A DNA stretch of 64,000 nt from Flaviflexus massiliensis. GTDB lineage: Bacteria > Actinomycetota > Actinomycetes > Actinomycetales > Actinomycetaceae. Both the position numbers and the translations under genes were made by a program. The stretch is from NCBI RefSeq assembly GCF_001375495.1, contig NZ_LN831058.1:1-64000 (forward strand), given 5' to 3'. The notes beneath the pieces were generated by a model. That model was not told where the DNA came from, did not search any database, and was given only the letters and a program-made list of their open reading frames with translations. Shown piece by piece: positions 57,236 to 64,000 of this stretch. Positions within the stretch are counted from its first letter, which is position 1. The number at the start of each line of letters is the position of its first letter.

Positions 57236-57241
57236 GTGCGG

Positions 57242-59455
57242 GTGACACAGACATCCCATCACCGTATCGAGCCCAAGCGCTATATTGCGCGGGCTCCTGA
57301 ACCAACCGCCCCCTCCCGTACGCACGCCAGCCAACTCGGCGTTTTCGTGCATCCTGACGGGGTCGATGTTGCGATTACCGCCCCGCTCGCTTCGGGGGTT
57401 GAGTTCTGCGCGATCGACCGCGGGCCAGCAGGAACGATCCTGGAGCGCCGCTATGCTCTCAACGGTCCTGAGCTCGGGGTGTGGACCGGGTTTATTCCGG
57501 GTATTGAGGTTGGTCAACACTACGGTTTCCGGGTGCACGGTAGGTGGGATCCCGAGGCCGGTATGAGACACAATCCCGCGAAGTTGCTGCTCGACCCGTA
57601 CGGAAGGGGTGTTGCTGGAGATTTCGATCTGGGCCCGGCCGTGTTTTCTCACGAGGTTGACGAGAATCTCCATCCCATCCCCGGTCCGCGCAAGATCAAC
57701 GAGTTGGATTCCGCCCCTCACGTCCCCCACTCGGTGATCGTTGACGACAGCTATTACGGCACCGTGGAAGCGCTCCACACCCCGTGGGACAGGACAGTTA
57801 TTTACGAGGCACACGTGCGCGGGCTGACGATGAACCTGCCCGGTGTGCCCACTCACCTTCGGGGAACCTATGCGGGGCTCGCTCACCCGGCAACGATTGC
57901 GCACCTGCAAAGGCTTGGCATCACCGCCATCGAACTCCTCCCGATCCAGGCGAAACTGTCGGAAACCTTCCTGATCGAGAAGGGGCTGTCCAACTACTGG
58001 GGGTACAACACTCTCGGATTCTTTGCTCCCGAACCTAGCTATGCGACCAAGGCCGCCCAAGCCGAAGGACCCTCGGCGGTCCTCCGGGAGGTCAAGGGCA
58101 TGGTGTCGCTCCTGCACGAGGCCGGGATCGAGGTGATCTTGGACGTGGTCTATAACCACACGTGCGAGGGTGGCACCGATGGGCCGACCCTGTCGTGGCG
58201 GGGATTTGGCGAATCAAACTTCTACATGCAAAAGCCCGGCAATCCCGGCGAATTTGATGACGTGACCGGCTGCGGCAACTCTCTCGACTTCCGCCTGCGC
58301 CGGGTCATCCAAATGTCTCTCGATTCGCTCCGCTACTGGGCGGAAGAAGTTGGGATTGACGGCTTTAGGTTTGACCTGGCGGTCACGCTTGGTCGGCAGG
58401 GCCGCGACTTCCACTCCCACCACCCGTTCTTCGTGGCCATGACCACCGACCCGGTTCTCCGGTCTCGCAAGCTCATCACCGAACCCTGGGACCTCGGGCA
58501 CAACGGGTGGCGCACGGGACAGTTCCCAAGCCCCATGGCGGACTGGAACGACCGCTACCGCAACACGGTCCGCTCCTTCTGGCTATCGGACCAGGCAGCG
58601 ATGGCCGACGGCAAGAGGCCCGCGGACTCCCGCGAGCTCGTCACCCGCCTGTCCGGTTCAGCCGATCTATTCTCGCGCGGCCGGGTTCCCGGTGGGCGCG
58701 GCACGTTTGCCTCCATTAACTTCGTGACCGCTCACGATGGCTTCACCCTGGGCGATCTCGTGACCTACAACTACAAGCACAACGAAGCGAACCTGGAAGA
58801 CAATCGTGATGGGACCGATGACAACAGGTCGTGGAATCACGGGAATGAAGGGCCGGATGCGGCCCTTCTGGCGGCACGTCAGAAGTCGATGAGGAACCTC
58901 ATCGCCACCCTCCTCCTGTCCTCGGGCACCCCGATGATCACCGCCGGTGACGAGATCGGGCGCACCCAGTTCGGCAACAACAACCCCTACTGCCAGGACA
59001 ACACCCTGTCGTGGGTGGATTGGCGCCTCCAACCCTGGCAGGAAGACTTCCAGGAAACCGTGTCCTACCTGATTCGGCTCCGCCGCGAGCACACGGTCTT
59101 CCGACCCACGGGCTTCTACACGGGAACGCCCCGGAACGGGGACCCGCTGCCCGACGTCACGTGGCTGGCGAGGGACGGGGAGGAAATGCCCGCATGGAAA
59201 TGGTTCGAACCATCCTCGCGCTCCTTCCAGATGTTGCGGTCCGGAGGTGGCACGGATGTGGATGCCCTCATCATCATCAACGGCCTGAACGAACCCCGAG
59301 AGTTCACGTTCCCAATTGGTCGAGGCAGGCCCTTTGATCTTGCCTGGGACTCGACCGTGGCCCGCCCGAACGGGTTCCGTGAACGCAAGCTCCCCGGTTC
59401 AACGATTGAGATGGAAGAGCAGTCGATTCGCCTCTACCTGTCGAACCCCGCCTAA
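57242..59455 (+). CDS. glgX: Glycogen debranching enzyme GlgX
   Basis: A GH13 alpha-1,6-glucosidase that removes limit-dextrin branches in glycogen breakdown. After an N-terminal CBM48 domain (about 35-150) comes the TIM barrel with DVVYNHT (region I), GFRFDLAV with the nucleophile Asp (region II), LITEPWDLG with the acid Glu (region III) and FVTAHDGFTLGDLV (region IV). WNDRYRNTVRSFW and NEANLEDNRDGTDDN are GlgX hallmarks. Length (737 residues) is usual. The start is either GTG 57242 (favoured by a -10-like GACAAT at 6 bases) or GTG 57236. Confidence 0.95.
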   Translation: MTQTSHHRIEPKRYIARAPEPTAPSRTHASQLGVFVHPDGVDVAITAPLASGVEFCAIDRGPAGTILERRYALNGPELGVWTGFIPGIEVGQHYGFRVHGRWDPEAGMRHNPAKLLLDPYGRGVAGDFDLGPAVFSHEVDENLHPIPGPRKINELDSAPHVPHSVIVDDSYYGTVEALHTPWDRTVIYEAHVRGLTMNLPGVPTHLRGTYAGLAHPATIAHLQRLGITAIELLPIQAKLSETFLIEKGLSNYWGYNTLGFFAPEPSYATKAAQAEGPSAVLREVKGMVSLLHEAGIEVILDVVYNHTCEGGTDGPTLSWRGFGESNFYMQKPGNPGEFDDVTGCGNSLDFRLRRVIQMSLDSLRYWAEEVGIDGFRFDLAVTLGRQGRDFHSHHPFFVAMTTDPVLRSRKLITEPWDLGHNGWRTGQFPSPMADWNDRYRNTVRSFWLSDQAAMADGKRPADSRELVTRLSGSADLFSRGRVPGGRGTFASINFVTAHDGFTLGDLVTYNYKHNEANLEDNRDGTDDNRSWNHGNEGPDAALLAARQKSMRNLIATLLLSSGTPMITAGDEIGRTQFGNNNPYCQDNTLSWVDWRLQPWQEDFQETVSYLIRLRREHTVFRPTGFYTGTPRNGDPLPDVTWLARDGEEMPAWKWFEPSSRSFQMLRSGGGTDVDALIIINGLNEPREFTFPIGRGRPFDLAWDSTVARPNGFRERKLPGSTIEMEEQSIRLYLSNPA

Positions 59456-59523: not shown

Positions 59524-60633
59524 ATGGCTCATGACGAGGAAGTAGACCTCGAAACCACAATCGGTGAGGACTCGCTTCGCCACTCGGAAAAGGTCAGCGA
59601 GGAGCTGCTCCAGAAGATTCAGGAAGACGCCTCCCCCTTCAGGATGCTGACCGGCGACCGCCCCACCGGCAAACTCCACCTCGGCCACTACTTCGGTTCC
59701 CTCAAGAACCGCGTAGAACTCCAGAAAGCCGGAGTGGAAACGTGGCTCGTTGTTGCCGACTACCAGGTCATCACCGACCGTGACGCGGTTGGCGAAATCC
59801 GTGACCGGGTTTACGGACTGGTAACCGACTACCTGTCGGTCGGGATCGACCCCGAGAAGGCCGTGATCTTCCCGCACTCGCAGATCCCGGAACTGAACGA
59901 ACTCGTCATCCCCTTCCTCTCGATCGTCACCGATTCCGAGCTGCGCCGGAACCCCACGGTCAAGGCCGAACTCGATGCGTCTGGCAACCGGCCCATGTCC
60001 GGACTCCTCCTCACCTACCCGGTGCACCAGGCGGCCGACATCCTCTTCTGTAAGGCCAACGTCGTACCCGTCGGCAAGGACCAACTCCCCCACCTCGAAC
60101 AGGCCCGTGTCATCGCCCAGCGTTTCAACAAACGCTATGGCCGCCCCAAGGGACAAAAACACCCGATCTTCCCCCGCCCCCAAGCACTCCTGTCCGAGGC
60201 TCCCTCGGTGCTGGGCCTCGATGGTCAGAAGATGTCCAAGTCCCGCCACAACACGATCGAGCTGGCAATGACCGCGGATGAGACGGCAGCTCGCCTGAAG
60301 AAGGCCGTCACCGACTCTGAGCGCACGATCACTTACGATCCGGTCAATCGCCCCGAGGTTGCCAACCTCGTTCAGCTCACCGCACTATCAACCGGCCGGG
60401 ATCCGCACGAGATTGCGGGCGAGATCGGTGACGGCGGCGCAGGCACCCTGAAGAAGGTGGCCACCGAGGCTATTAACGAGATGCTGGCACCGATCCGCGA
60501 GCGCCGCGCTGAAATTGAAGCGAACCAGGACTTTGTTCGCGACGTTCTCCGCACCGGCATTGAGAAGGCCAATGAGCAGGCCCGCGAAACCGCACGCGAG
60601 GTGCACGAGGCACTGCAGATGCAGTACTTCTAA
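59524..60633 (+). CDS. trpS: Tryptophanyl-tRNA synthetase
   Basis: A class I synthetase charging tRNA(Trp). The 369-residue protein has the ATP-binding HLGH (52-55) and KMSKS (236-240) motifs, the TrpRS-typical GDRPTGKLHLGHYFGSL and LLLTYPVHQAADILF segments, and an acidic N-terminal extension of about 35 residues. GGAAAGGA precedes ATG. It is separate from glgX (68 bases between) and followed by a strong hairpin. Confidence 0.97.
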   Translation: MAHDEEVDLETTIGEDSLRHSEKVSEELLQKIQEDASPFRMLTGDRPTGKLHLGHYFGSLKNRVELQKAGVETWLVVADYQVITDRDAVGEIRDRVYGLVTDYLSVGIDPEKAVIFPHSQIPELNELVIPFLSIVTDSELRRNPTVKAELDASGNRPMSGLLLTYPVHQAADILFCKANVVPVGKDQLPHLEQARVIAQRFNKRYGRPKGQKHPIFPRPQALLSEAPSVLGLDGQKMSKSRHNTIELAMTADETAARLKKAVTDSERTITYDPVNRPEVANLVQLTALSTGRDPHEIAGEIGDGGAGTLKKVATEAINEMLAPIRERRAEIEANQDFVRDVLRTGIEKANEQARETAREVHEALQMQYF

Positions 60634-61147: not shown

Positions 61148-61501
61148 ATGCGCACACATTCAATGAAGCGATCATTGGTTGTGGCGGGCCTTGCCCTGGC
61201 ACTCCCGTTTGGCCTCACTGCCTGTGGTGGTGGCAAGCCGTCGAAGGAAGACGTCAAGGAGGGCATGGTCAGCATGCTCAACGAGTCTGGTTTTGATGCT
61301 GAAAGCATGGAAGCCGCCGGCATCTCTCAGGATGCACTCGACGACTACTACAACTGCGTTGTCGAAGACCTGTACGACAACGTTTCGGACGACACCCTGA
61401 AGGCTCTGGCCGACGGTGACGCTTCGGCTCCGATGTCGGCCGAGGATAGCCCGAAGTTCAACGAGGCCGCCCAGGCCTGCATCAGCAACCTCGGCTTCTA
61501 A
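61148..61501 (+). CDS. Small lipoprotein, paralog A of tandem family
   Basis: A 117-residue lipoprotein: signal peptide, lipobox LTAC with Cys26, a 3-residue Gly linker, then a domain of about 85 residues. The domain has KPSKEDV, GMVSML, an MEAAGIS segment, YYNCVVEDLYDNVSDDTL with the first conserved cysteine, and a terminal CISNLGF with the second. A disulfide is likely outside the membrane. AAGGAG lies exactly 6 bases before the ATG. Very close to paralog B in signal peptide and domain, pointing to recent duplication. I recognise no named family and propose no function. Confidence 0.9.
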   Translation: MRTHSMKRSLVVAGLALALPFGLTACGGGKPSKEDVKEGMVSMLNESGFDAESMEAAGISQDALDDYYNCVVEDLYDNVSDDTLKALADGDASAPMSAEDSPKFNEAAQACISNLGF

Positions 61502-61699
61502 CAAGGAATTCTGACAGCTGTTTCAGCCCGTCCGAATCCCCTGAATTTATAACTCAATCAAGCTTTGCGACCGAAACCGATTGTTGTTTCTTGCAGTGAT
61601 GACAAGCATCCGGTTCCCCAGTCCCGATGGCTGACGGAATCGTCCGGTCCAATAAACTCTCACACAAGCAGTGCCGTGACGGCACAAAAGGAGACAGAT

Positions 61700-62047
61700 A
61701 TGCGCACCAATTCACTGAAGCGATCCATTGTTGTTGCTGGCCTCGCCCTAGCACTTCCCTTCGGACTCACCGCCTGCGGTGGCGGTAAGCCCTCCAAGGA
61801 AGACGTGAAGGACGGCATGGCCACCATCCTCGAAGACTACGGCGTCAGCGCTGAGACCATGGAAGCCGCCGGCATCTCCGGAGAGCAGCTCGACGGCTAC
61901 TATGCCTGCATTGTCGACGACGTCTACGACGATGTTTCCGATGACACCCTCAACGCCATTGCCGACGGCGAAGACAAGATGCTCGCCGAAGACCAGTCCG
62001 CTTTCAACACCGCAGTCACCAACTGCCAGAGCGAACTCGGCCTCTAA
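61700..62047 (+). CDS. Small lipoprotein, paralog B of tandem family
   Basis: A 115-residue lipoprotein, lipobox LTAC with Cys26, linker GGG, then the family domain (KPSKEDV, GMATIL, TMEAAGIS, YYACIVDDVYDDVSDDTL, terminal CQSELGL). An in-frame ATG at 61565 is rejected because it adds a non-signal segment and lacks a ribosome site, whereas AAGGAG sits 6 bases before 61700, as in paralog A. A short imperfect palindrome GTGCCGTGACGGCAC precedes the ribosome site. A hairpin at 62062-62094 ends the unit. Confidence 0.9.
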   Translation: MRTNSLKRSIVVAGLALALPFGLTACGGGKPSKEDVKDGMATILEDYGVSAETMEAAGISGEQLDGYYACIVDDVYDDVSDDTLNAIADGEDKMLAEDQSAFNTAVTNCQSELGL

Positions 62048-62061
62048 TTCGGTAAAACGGC

Positions 62062-62094
62062 GGTCTGCGCGGGCACTCACTGCCCGCGCAGACC
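62062..62094 (+). terminator. Terminator-like hairpin after paralog B
   Basis: A perfect 14-bp stem (GGTCTGCGCGGGCA and complement) with a CTCAC loop. There is no U-tail, so it might attenuate or stabilise rather than terminate. Confidence 0.6.
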
Positions 62095-62182
62095 CATATC
62101 TACCACCAAGCCCCAATCGACCATCGATTAAGAAGAAAAATGAAACTCGATGGAGATAAACGCACAATCTGAGGAGAAATAC

Positions 62183-62542
62183 TTGTGTACCAACACGATG
62201 AAGCGAACCCTGACAGCTCTCGGACTTGCCGTGGCACTGCCCTTTACTCTCGCAGCCTGCGGGGAAGAAGCGGCAAAGCCCAGTAAGGATGAAGTCAGCG
62301 CGGCCATGGATGACCTCCTAGCGGCCTCGGGCATGAGTCCCGAAACACTGGAAGCAACGGGACTCAGCGAGGAGCAGTTCAACGGCTACCGCAACTGCAT
62401 CGTTAACTCGATCTACGATGACGTCTCGGCCGAGTCCCTCCAGTACCTGGTTGACGGAGACTACGAGTCCCCCGTGTCGAAGGACGACAGCGACAAGATC
62501 GACAGCGCCATCCAGACCTGCGCTTCCGAACTCGGAGTCTAG
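62183..62542 (+). CDS. Small lipoprotein, paralog C of tandem family
   Basis: A 119-residue lipoprotein. I start at TTG 62183: GAGGAG lies 6 bases before it (the spacing used by A and B), and the resulting signal peptide aligns residue by residue with A and B, putting the lipid Cys at position 26 (LAAC). An in-frame ATG at 62150 has no ribosome site. The linker is five residues (GEEAA), then KPSKDEV, YRNCIVNSIYDDVSAESL with cysteine 1 and the terminal CASELGV with cysteine 2. Function unknown. Confidence 0.87.
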   Translation: MCTNTMKRTLTALGLAVALPFTLAACGEEAAKPSKDEVSAAMDDLLAASGMSPETLEATGLSEEQFNGYRNCIVNSIYDDVSAESLQYLVDGDYESPVSKDDSDKIDSAIQTCASELGV

Positions 62543-62815
62543 GACCTAGGAGTATTCCGATGGGTGGGTGGCCGCTGGCATCATCGTTTGCGCCACTCAC
62601 TAATTCTTATAGTCGATTCACACTGTGCCGCGCGGGTGAAGCGGTCGAGGACATTGCAGAACACCGATCCCTAACCACCATGCCAACCCCTCGAGACAAG
62701 ACACTGACATTCCTAACAACCCAGTGAAGTCTACCTACCAATCGTTCACACCTGTCGAACATCGGGGCTATGGACGGTAAGCTTTCAATGGCGTCCAGAA
62801 CCTGAGGAAGAGTAA

Positions 62816-63334
62816 ATGAAGCGGCCTTTTCGAACAGCTTTCCTGCTGCTCACCATCCCCCTAGCTCTCGCGGCTTGCTCCTCTGACAATGAGGAGGCCT
62901 CATCCGAGACTTCCTCCGAACTCTCGGTGGACCCGACCGAGGACGATCTCAGCCCCGGAATCAACGACGTACCCCAACCCGGTCCCGACGACTCGTCAAA
63001 CGCTGAAGAACCCGAGCTCCCAGAGCCAACAGAGGATGCCGAGGAACCGGTCGACCCTGCGGATGGTCCCAGCAAGCAAGAGGTGGCTGACGGCCTGCGG
63101 GTGATGATGATGGAGGAGCTGGCTGTCACCGAAGAAGATCTTGAAGAGTCAGGTGCAACAGAACTCATGGAAGAGTTCTACACGTGCGCGACCGACTCCG
63201 TATACGACTCCGTCTCCACCGAGGCACTGGTGGCGCTCGCGGAATCAAATATTGATGCGGAGCTGTCCGAAGAGGACTCCTCCATTCTCAATACGGCAAC
63301 GATCGAGTGCGGAAACAGCATCTCAACCCGGTAG
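62816..63334 (+). CDS. Small lipoprotein, paralog D of tandem family, long linker
   Basis: A 172-residue lipoprotein with lipobox LAAC (Cys21), then an acidic, Ser/Pro-rich disordered linker of about 63 residues (rich in DE, with PELPEPTEDAEEP) before the family domain (PSKQEVADGL, MMEELAVTEEDLEESG, FYTCATDSVYDSVSTEAL with cysteine 1, terminal ECGNS with cysteine 2). It is the most diverged copy: the C-terminal SELGL motif is lost. GAGGAAG precedes the ATG. A 273-base gap separates it from C, so it probably has its own promoter. Confidence 0.85.
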   Translation: MKRPFRTAFLLLTIPLALAACSSDNEEASSETSSELSVDPTEDDLSPGINDVPQPGPDDSSNAEEPELPEPTEDAEEPVDPADGPSKQEVADGLRVMMMEELAVTEEDLEESGATELMEEFYTCATDSVYDSVSTEALVALAESNIDAELSEEDSSILNTATIECGNSISTR

Positions 63335-63460
63335 CTCTCCTCGCCCGTTTGACCGTCCCCAGCCTCGAACAATCAGCAAGGATCCAGCTCCCCTTCTTTT
63401 TGCACACGGATAGTCAGCAATCTGGCACCCCACTCCGTATGATCGAGAAAATGTGATCTG

Positions 63461-63505
63461 AGGAGCCTGATCGCCCATCCTGATGTTTATCAGGTGGAGC
63501 CTCCT
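63461..63505 (+). other. Structured leader of paralog E
   Basis: Outer arms AGGAG / CTCCT enclose a perfect CCTGAT-GTTT-ATCAGG hairpin (63479-63494), ending 29 bases before the paralog E start. The AGGAG in the outer arm is not the gene's own ribosome site. A folding role in the leader RNA is conceivable but unproven. Confidence 0.35.
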
Positions 63506-63533
63506 TACAGGTCAGGGAACATTGGGGAAGCTC

Positions 63534-64000
63534 ATGAAGACAAAACTAGGTTTGCGTTCCTTGTACGCAGTGGCTCTGACCGTTGTCCTGCCACTTGGGT
63601 TGACAGCATGCGGAGACAACTCTGCCAACACCAGTAGCGAGACGTCTAGCGAGATCATCGAGGGTGAAGAGGACGATCCCACCGAATCCGTAGACGCACC
63701 GAGCAGCGGGGACAACAGCACCTCAACCGATAAACCCACGAAGGACGAAGTTGTCGATGGAATAGCGCAGATGCTGGCAGAGCACGGGCTCACCGACGAG
63801 TATATGGAAGCCAGCGGCGGCTCCGCCGAGCAACTCCACAACTACTACGTGTGCACCGTTGATGGCTTCTACGACGATGTCTCTACAGAGACACTCGAGA
63901 ACATCGCAAACGGGAAAGATGAGATGCCCGACGATGAACAGGCACTATTTGACGCGGCTGCCGACAATTGCGTGGGCGAACTCGGCCTCGAGGACGACAC
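63534..64000 (+). CDS. Small lipoprotein, paralog E of tandem family (cut by window end)
   Basis: The gene starts at ATG 63534 (GGGGAAG before it) and is still open at the last base. Lipobox LTAC gives Cys26. A linker of about 40 residues rich in Ser, Thr, Asp and Glu follows, then the family domain: KPTKDEVVDGI, EYMEASGG, YYVCTVDGFYDDVSTETL with cysteine 1, and NCVGELGLEDD with cysteine 2. At least 155 residues are seen; the stop should come within a few codons, since the SELGL-type end is reached. The array may continue beyond the window. Confidence 0.88.
   Translation, partial: MKTKLGLRSLYAVALTVVLPLGLTACGDNSANTSSETSSEIIEGEEDDPTESVDAPSSGDNSTSTDKPTKDEVVDGIAQMLAEHGLTDEYMEASGGSAEQLHNYYVCTVDGFYDDVSTETLENIANGKDEMPDDEQALFDAAADNCVGELGLEDD

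Follow-up and report, generated by a model that had tools for sequence, protein, structure and literature searches.

A tandem array of small lipoproteins with an unnamed exported domain in Flaviflexus massiliensis, and relatives of the domain in Actinomycetota

Tandem arrays of lipoproteins are already known as a kind, and by analogy the closest precedent for the anatomy of the locus analyzed here comes from the Lpl/TilA array of staphylococci, in which one lipoprotein, TilA, acts as an inhibitor of TslA, a lipase of the type VII secretion system (T7SS) (PMC10730906). Our locus lies at the right end of a window of 64,000 nucleotides from Flaviflexus massiliensis (Actinomycetaceae; positions 1 to 64,000 of contig NZ_LN831058.1) and consists of six same-strand lipoprotein genes, A to F, with seven copies of a domain of ~85 residues, located between trpS and glgE. 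As in Lpl/TilA (DUF576; PMC10730906, PMC4470592), the paralogues are tandem, same-strand and non-identical, they occupy several loci, and their copy number varies. Unlike in Lpl/TilA, the window proteins had no DUF576 match (Pfam, E up to 10), no toxin-chaperone cassette was recognised beside the array, the domain is predicted to be all-helical, its spread over Actinomycetota is patchy, and it is also found on transmembrane anchors. Strings of esaG immunity paralogues are likewise tandem and non-identical, but they are reportedly tied to polymorphic toxins and belong to firmicute T7SS toxins (PMC9484751), whereas no toxin link was found for the present array. What distinguishes the latter is an unmodelled domain family with unusual anchor exchange. 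We tentatively propose, as a possibility that falls somewhat short of an even chance, that an unnamed family of exported, membrane-tethered domains has expanded locally to give the array, as a surface recognition module evolving by birth and death.

Two other systems resemble the domain or its carriers. DUF732 (PF05305), which is exported and of helical character, is a domain of ~70 residues with two cysteines that are invariant in 26 aligned sequences, with 38 residues between them in the first row as in the array domain, and it is present in many copies in some genomes. In one genome (G592) we observed 30 DUF732 matches, several of them close together, so that this is another two-cysteine domain with strong paralogue expansion. 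The cysteine spacing had suggested that the array domain might be DUF732, but this identity was rejected by hhalign, which gave a probability of 0.2%, versus 99.8% for the positive control, i.e., the comparison between two parts of the array domain family. The DUF732 Pfam model had no match among the five window proteins (E up to 10), was absent among the best 25 of 33 families for 49 members of the array domain family, and at E 1e-6 found nothing in the own genome; a sequence search of the PDB gave no convincing DUF732 chain, the best match being the PIT54 protein (E 0.045). Furthermore, a general architecture among actinobacterial proteins combines a disordered part in the cytoplasm, a single membrane span and an extracellular domain. 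The copies at two other loci of the F. massiliensis genome (loci II and III) share this layout; unlike in the usual members of this architecture, their extracellular domain is the unassigned array domain, which is also found on lipoproteins.

The array genes and their domain

All array genes in the window are on the + strand. Gene A (61148..61501) encodes a lipoprotein of 117 aa with lipobox LTAC, Cys26 and a single domain (61235-61498), and gene B (61700..62047) a lipoprotein of 115 aa with the same lipobox and a single domain (61787-62044). Gene C (62183..62542; 119 aa; domain 62276-62539) is read from a TTG start after GAGGAG, which was chosen because translation from it gives an N-terminus resembling those of A and B. 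The lipoprotein encoded by gene D (62816..63334; 172 aa) has a 62-residue acidic linker before its single domain (63065-63331), and an orthologue was found in the congener G001. Gene E, which occupies 63534..64000 in the window and continues to contig position 64277, encodes a lipoprotein of 247 aa with a 40-residue linker and two domains, one at 63732-63992 and the second, beyond the window, at 64020-64274. It is followed, also beyond the window, by the sixth array gene, F (64695-65267), and then by glgE. The initial annotation, made from the window alone, had described five consecutive same-strand genes with a lipobox and a shared domain and had suspected a longer array; the open reading frames, the sequence and a search of the own genome agree with the former, and the continuation of E together with F bears out the latter. 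When the own genome (2.63 Mb, 7 contigs) was searched with protein B, A was matched with E 3e-45, C with 8e-27, E with 6e-23 and D with 5e-11, and therefore the relatedness within the array is far beyond chance. All six genes carry a lipobox (LTAC or LAAC) with its Cys at position 21-26 (Pfam LPAM_1 matched the window proteins only below its cut-off), and the linker before the domain measures 3-78 residues and is acidic where long. A and B had been taken for near duplicates, but this applies only to their signal peptides, which almost match; their domains are 59% identical, with a dS of 0.85, and the closest relative of B is F (72% identity), outside the window. A compact operon was rejected, since the gaps between the array genes are 135-417 bp. 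One promoter-like site and two terminator-like sites, both of the latter on the opposite strand, were detected in the array, fewer than in shuffles; an Rfam scan of the array gave no match, and the DNA repeats within it coincide with the homology of the genes themselves.

The two cysteines of the domain, which the initial annotation had singled out as conserved, are invariant in 49/49 members (alignment A2) and are separated by 38 residues in B. In a wider alignment (A9) the first Cys was present in 34/34 rows and the second in 32/33 rows with a letter at that column; the two f19 rows without the second Cys in this column have a cysteine a few residues further on. The cysteines probably form a disulfide outside the cell. 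The other most conserved positions are P2, G10, S3, S51, D69, G29, D48 and D44, and in A2 also Y47, with conservation in part counted over just the rows that have a letter at the position. The shared pattern described earlier thus stands for the strictly kept cysteine pair, but its motifs are not strict: C has YRNC and ...ESL, A ends with CISNLGF, and D is without the LG end.

The five window proteins had no match above the curated cut-offs of Pfam and NCBIfam, and none in a PADLOC scan for defence families, in keeping with the initial view that the domain belongs to no recognised family. When the 49 members were scanned singly, no Pfam family was matched by more than one of them (among the best 25 of 33 families) and no NCBIfam family by more than two. 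The best single matches were to SigW (E 0.00028, one member) and to SpsC (two members, best E 0.0022), the better SpsC match reaching 17.6 bits against a cut-off of 280. Hha, cytochrome c551, SpsC, SigW, WKL lipoprotein and similar matches were all discarded, as they concerned 1-2 of 49 members, did not reach the cut-off, or fell within the signal peptide. In PHROGs the best match (E 0.0003) covered the signal peptide and the first residues, and a sequence search of the PDB gave no convincing match (best E 0.34). Searches of open-access literature on tandem lipoproteins, lipoproteins of Actinomycetaceae, Tad, immunity and Flaviflexus listed nothing on this domain family. The domains of the window's genus for which charge was computed have charges of -10 to -23; outside the genus, values of +6 (a G208 member) and -1 to -4 (f17 members) were obtained, and lysine-rich members occur outside the class, so that acidity was rejected as an essential trait of the family.

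A compact five-helix fold is predicted for the domain. The AlphaFold2 model of the B domain (eight sequences; pLDDT 92.7, pTM 0.80) has helices at 4-17, 22-27, 32-46, 52-59 and 67-84, and that of the D domain (eight sequences; pLDDT 92.4, pTM 0.80) has them in nearly the same places (4-19, 23-29, 32-46, 52-59 and 69-87). A common fold of the copies, which had been put forward for checking, is thus predicted for B and D; the two models share the same eight input sequences and are not independent, so that their agreement is partly expected. In the B model helices begin directly after S3 and S51, and D69 falls in the opening turn of the final helix; the secondary structure thus points to helix capping as the source of much of the polar conservation, a pattern to be expected where the fold is retained and the remaining positions vary. 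Foldseek found no match below E 2.1 in the PDB and none better than E 0.89 among viral structures, and the best VIA-align score (Z 4.1, 3.4 A over 66 residues) is one that common helical arrangements also reach, and is too low to be meaningful for a bundle of helices. Therefore, no known fold can be assigned, which does not imply that the fold is novel.

Anchors and copy number within the genus

The own genome has 11 domains, seven at trpS-glgE (locus I) and four at the two other loci, and relatives were found even outside the class, so that the array is not the isolated oddity for which it might have been taken. Three transmembrane proteins with the domain, H1, H2 and H3, are encoded between ctaF and sodA-qcrB; the fourth, G, near 540 kb, has a Q/G/Y-rich N-terminus, a membrane span and another Cys-rich stretch before the array domain. 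At loci II and III the domain is terminal, on transmembrane proteins with a Q/G/P/Y-rich N-terminal part (membrane spans were identified by eye). A short protein of the ctaF-sodA interval, H0, scored weakly in the own genome (E 0.03), but its counterparts in three congeners scored 1.5e-10 (G003), 5e-6 (G004) and 2e-6 (G005), and H0 is probably a diverged member of the family, judging from these scores. A match at 532283 (E 0.06) was dropped, as it lies within mnh/mrp-like genes. Two observations concern the surroundings of these loci. At L016:10235-13086 (contig 7, ~538-541 kb) two adjoining transmembrane proteins have cysteine-containing repeats of type DALYDACGGGDMAACDDLY, and one of them also bears the array domain; neither reached a Pfam cut-off or gave any NCBIfam match at E 0.01. 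Near ctaF, a short hydrophilic protein (L017:3436-3729) has the motif NPLSPHADDP and EYDQ-type repeats; similar frames are present in several species (L077, L079, L080 and L081), and the L017 copy had no match in Pfam (E 0.1) or NCBIfam (E 0.01).

The relationships among copies were analyzed with an unrooted tree of 42 domain rows, which does not hold all known copies and in which many inner forks are weak (15/39 starred). B, E1, E2 and F form a cluster with the transmembrane copy G (100/96) that comprises the own genome only, and in G001 the lipoprotein I_a clusters with the transmembrane copies II_3 and II_4 (98/96). Clusters that cross anchor types were thus observed in two lineages, and hence the domain has crossed between lipid and transmembrane anchors; the tree, being unrooted and with weak forks, gives the crossing without its direction. 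Other copies are, to judge from their clustering, old and stable: D pairs with G001_I_d (99/94), and H1-type copies from five genomes form one group (99/89). The branch leading to H3 is very long, and the placement of this copy is unsure.

The flanks of the array site, trpS on one side and glgE-treS on the other, were found in all six genomes of the genus. The number of domains between them was seven in the own genome (G000), three in G001, one in G003, one plus a frame-broken copy in G002, and zero in G004 and G005; the comparison of copy number in related genomes that had been suggested at the outset gave differences, from 0 to 7. In the frame-broken copy of G002 (L082:5102-5569) the signal peptide and the domain are in different frames and the domain stops early, which may be either a decaying gene or an assembly error. 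At the same site, G004 and G005 have a 63- or 72-codon frame with a signal peptide, a lipobox and an acidic tail but no domain (L102:1584-1775 and L103:6409-6627, respectively), alike in both species; it looks like an F-type carrier after loss of its domain. The ctaF-sodA site varies likewise, with five copies in G001, and in G002 its parts are on two separate contigs. In G001 an IS3-type transposase-like gene pair (L077:7820-9042), named by resemblance, lies amid the domain copies of this site and is a possible agent of their rearrangement.

Constraint was estimated from dN/dS in 21 pairs (Nei-Gojobori counting, own script), and the values are rough since dS was >=0.78 in 18/21 pairs. They were 0.18-0.58 among array copies, 0.24-0.81 in other array-type pairs and 0.05-0.15 among H1 orthologues. 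On these rough values the duplicated copies are under weaker constraint, and there is no sign of positive selection.

Distribution and neighbourhoods

The domain was detected in 35/213 genomes of the Actinomycetaceae, the window's family (profile A1, 0.001), a lower bound since the order-sample scan adds two family genomes (G028 and G030). In the order sample 13/347 genomes were positive (profile A2, 1e-4), in the class sample 9/394 and in the phylum sample 2/296 (both profile A9, 1e-5). The own genome is part of each of these counts, the samples share genomes, and the scans used different profiles and thresholds. Three class-sample matches (G315, G755 and G763) were weak and unconfirmed (E 3-6e-6), a closer look showing no such lipoprotein for them, and may be due to chance; G805 and G825, from outside the order, have clear lipoproteins with the domain. 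The other positive genome of the phylum sample is from outside the class and has two AT-rich genes with a lipobox-like signal and the motifs PSK-x-DV or ASK-x-DV and C-x2-D-x2-YD; stops were counted within the match of one of them. A first scan of a collection of genome contigs found no relatives, and a second only a contig of the Actinomycetaceae bacterium isolate SIG35 (SUUB01000031.1). The family is thus patchy but broad over Actinomycetota. Separate multi-copy clusters were present in G009 (8 matches), G033, G208 and G457; in the last, which belongs to another family of the order, six lipoproteins with the domain (L128:5702-10353) are encoded a few kb away from genes that resemble rpsF, ssb and rplI.

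At locus I the neighbours are glgX-trpS on the left and glgE-treS on the right. The trpS gene (59524..60633, + strand), which had a match in 6/6 genomes of the genus, directly flanks the array, and further left is a glgX-like glycogen debranching enzyme gene (57236..59455, + strand; Pfam alpha-amylase and CBM_48, synteny). Among the neighbour genes named in this work glgX alone was confirmed with Pfam; the names trpS, glgE, treS, ctaCDF, sodA, qcrAB, mnh/mrp, ssd, tadA, holin-like, ephE, nth, crp and IS3 were given by resemblance and are presumed. No toxin or helical partner was recognised at loci I-III, as judged by reading and flanking-gene homology only.

The loci of 21 Actinomycetaceae genomes outside the genus were then compared. 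In 9/21 genomes, from four genera (G009, G011, G023, G033, G130, G140, G142, G208 and G210), the copies are beside a divergent ssd-tadA pair and before a holin-like gene; in G011 one copy is before the holin-like gene and two of three are beyond it. The next gene is ephE in eight of the nine (it was not found in G011), and nth or crp is present in the same eight. We take this ssd-tadA/holin/ephE/nth/crp region to resemble the Rv3660c-Rv3676 region of Mycobacterium tuberculosis. In the other 12/21 genomes neither ssd nor tadA was matched in the stretch that was read, and in the window's genus the ssd-holin interval, located in 6/6 genomes, had no detectable copy inside. From gene order, the ssd-holin place may be ancestral within the family, which does not imply a functional link.

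Candidate explanations for the array

The proposal that we tentatively prefer, a surface recognition module evolving by birth and death, would work as follows. Each array gene encodes a signal peptide with a lipobox, a linker, and one or two domains with the predicted five-helix fold, and the picture best supported is that of a small helical domain, probably stabilised by a disulfide, on a tether outside the membrane. The domain would act as a protein- or ligand-binding module at the outer face of the membrane or in the wall; in our view a binding or recognition role is the most likely one. The lineage would renew the domain by tandem duplication, by loss, and by moving it to other loci and anchors, with the result that related cells would display differing sets of diverged variants; carriers and copy numbers would change quickly, while the domain itself would stay under constraint. 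Export signals, the shared domain, the invariant cysteines, altered copy number at fixed sites, cross-anchor clusters and dN/dS values below 1 are observed and speak for this picture; from them we infer the disulfide, the binding role, and that selection would act for variety rather than for dose. Several results weigh against this proposal. The domain is dispensable at the array site in G004 and G005, though both keep copies at ctaF-sodA, and 20/35 positive genomes of the family have a single domain match. None of the 21 pairs had a dN/dS >1 (range 0.05-0.81), and the least constrained ones (A-C, A-g1a, g1a-g1II4 and g9_1-g9_2) could equally be read as relaxed selection. In addition, the fold matches (PDB, viral structures) yield no function. 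The more specific claim that the domain forms a variable surface repertoire, amplified at fixed slots, moved between them and switched from lipid-anchored to membrane-spanning carriers or back, with strains showing different diverged variants to phages, competitors or hosts, is quite unlikely to hold in full. Selection by hosts, competitors or phages, which the initial annotation had raised, was not demonstrated: the dN/dS values, the lack of viral-contig relatives and of defence matches, and a contrary co-occurrence with WXG100 genes all fail to support it.

The alternatives start from the same anatomy. The domain might instead be an accessory lipoprotein of a conserved envelope locus, whose ancestor functioned together with Ssd/Tad pilus genes or with the holin-like gene, the copies of the genus being relocated with the same housekeeping role. 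The position of the copies beside ssd-tadA and before the holin-like gene in nine genomes of four genera speaks for this, but the empty ssd-holin interval of all six genus genomes, in which ssd and tadA are nevertheless present, the 12/21 genomes without these genes near the copies, and the other neighbours of more distant loci make it unlikely. A repertoire of immunity proteins, in which each copy would neutralise a variant of an extracellular antibacterial toxin as in staphylococcal TilA/Lpl, with stray copies as orphan immunity genes, would fit the match in anatomy to that precedent (tandem non-identical lipoproteins, several loci, variable copy number; PMC10730906, PMC4470592). It would also fit the anchor switching, as protection outside the membrane would permit, and within the genus the two WXG100-bearing species (G000 and G001) have the most copies. 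However, no toxin gene was recognised by reading beside loci I-III or the relatives read, with no toxin search run, and G009, with 8 copies, has no WXG100 match. Moreover, a WXG100 match was found in 12/35 domain-positive versus 154/178 other genomes of the family, uncorrected for kinship and with G028 and G030, neither listed with WXG100, counted among the 178. This co-occurrence ran the opposite way to that expected, and immunity to T7SS toxins in particular was rejected; likewise, a known defence system was dropped for want of a PADLOC match, which also counts against the broader immunity idea, and a phage origin because viral contigs (one scan) held no relatives and viral structures no fold match better than that given above. 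Immunity in the wider sense is improbable. To the same degree doubtful is the idea that a small acidic lipoprotein with a physical job, e.g., holding cations or water at the membrane face, was duplicated neutrally or for dose. The negative charge of the genus domains, the acidity of the long linkers, and the acidic lipoprotein without the domain that two congeners keep would agree with it, but the charge varies over the family (G208, f17 and the lysine-rich members outside the class), conservation lies in the fold-related pattern and the cysteines, and the copies diverge rather than stay alike.

The analysis defines a recurrent exported domain without a model in the copies of Pfam and NCBIfam that were searched. 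It also provides a clean evolutionary system, in which a single domain is followed at two fixed sites with conserved flanks, with 0-7 copies at one of them and at least two cross-anchor clusters. If the array and its relatives are indeed a recognition or immunity repertoire, they would form, in actinobacteria and from an unrelated family, a counterpart to the tandem lipoproteins of staphylococci.

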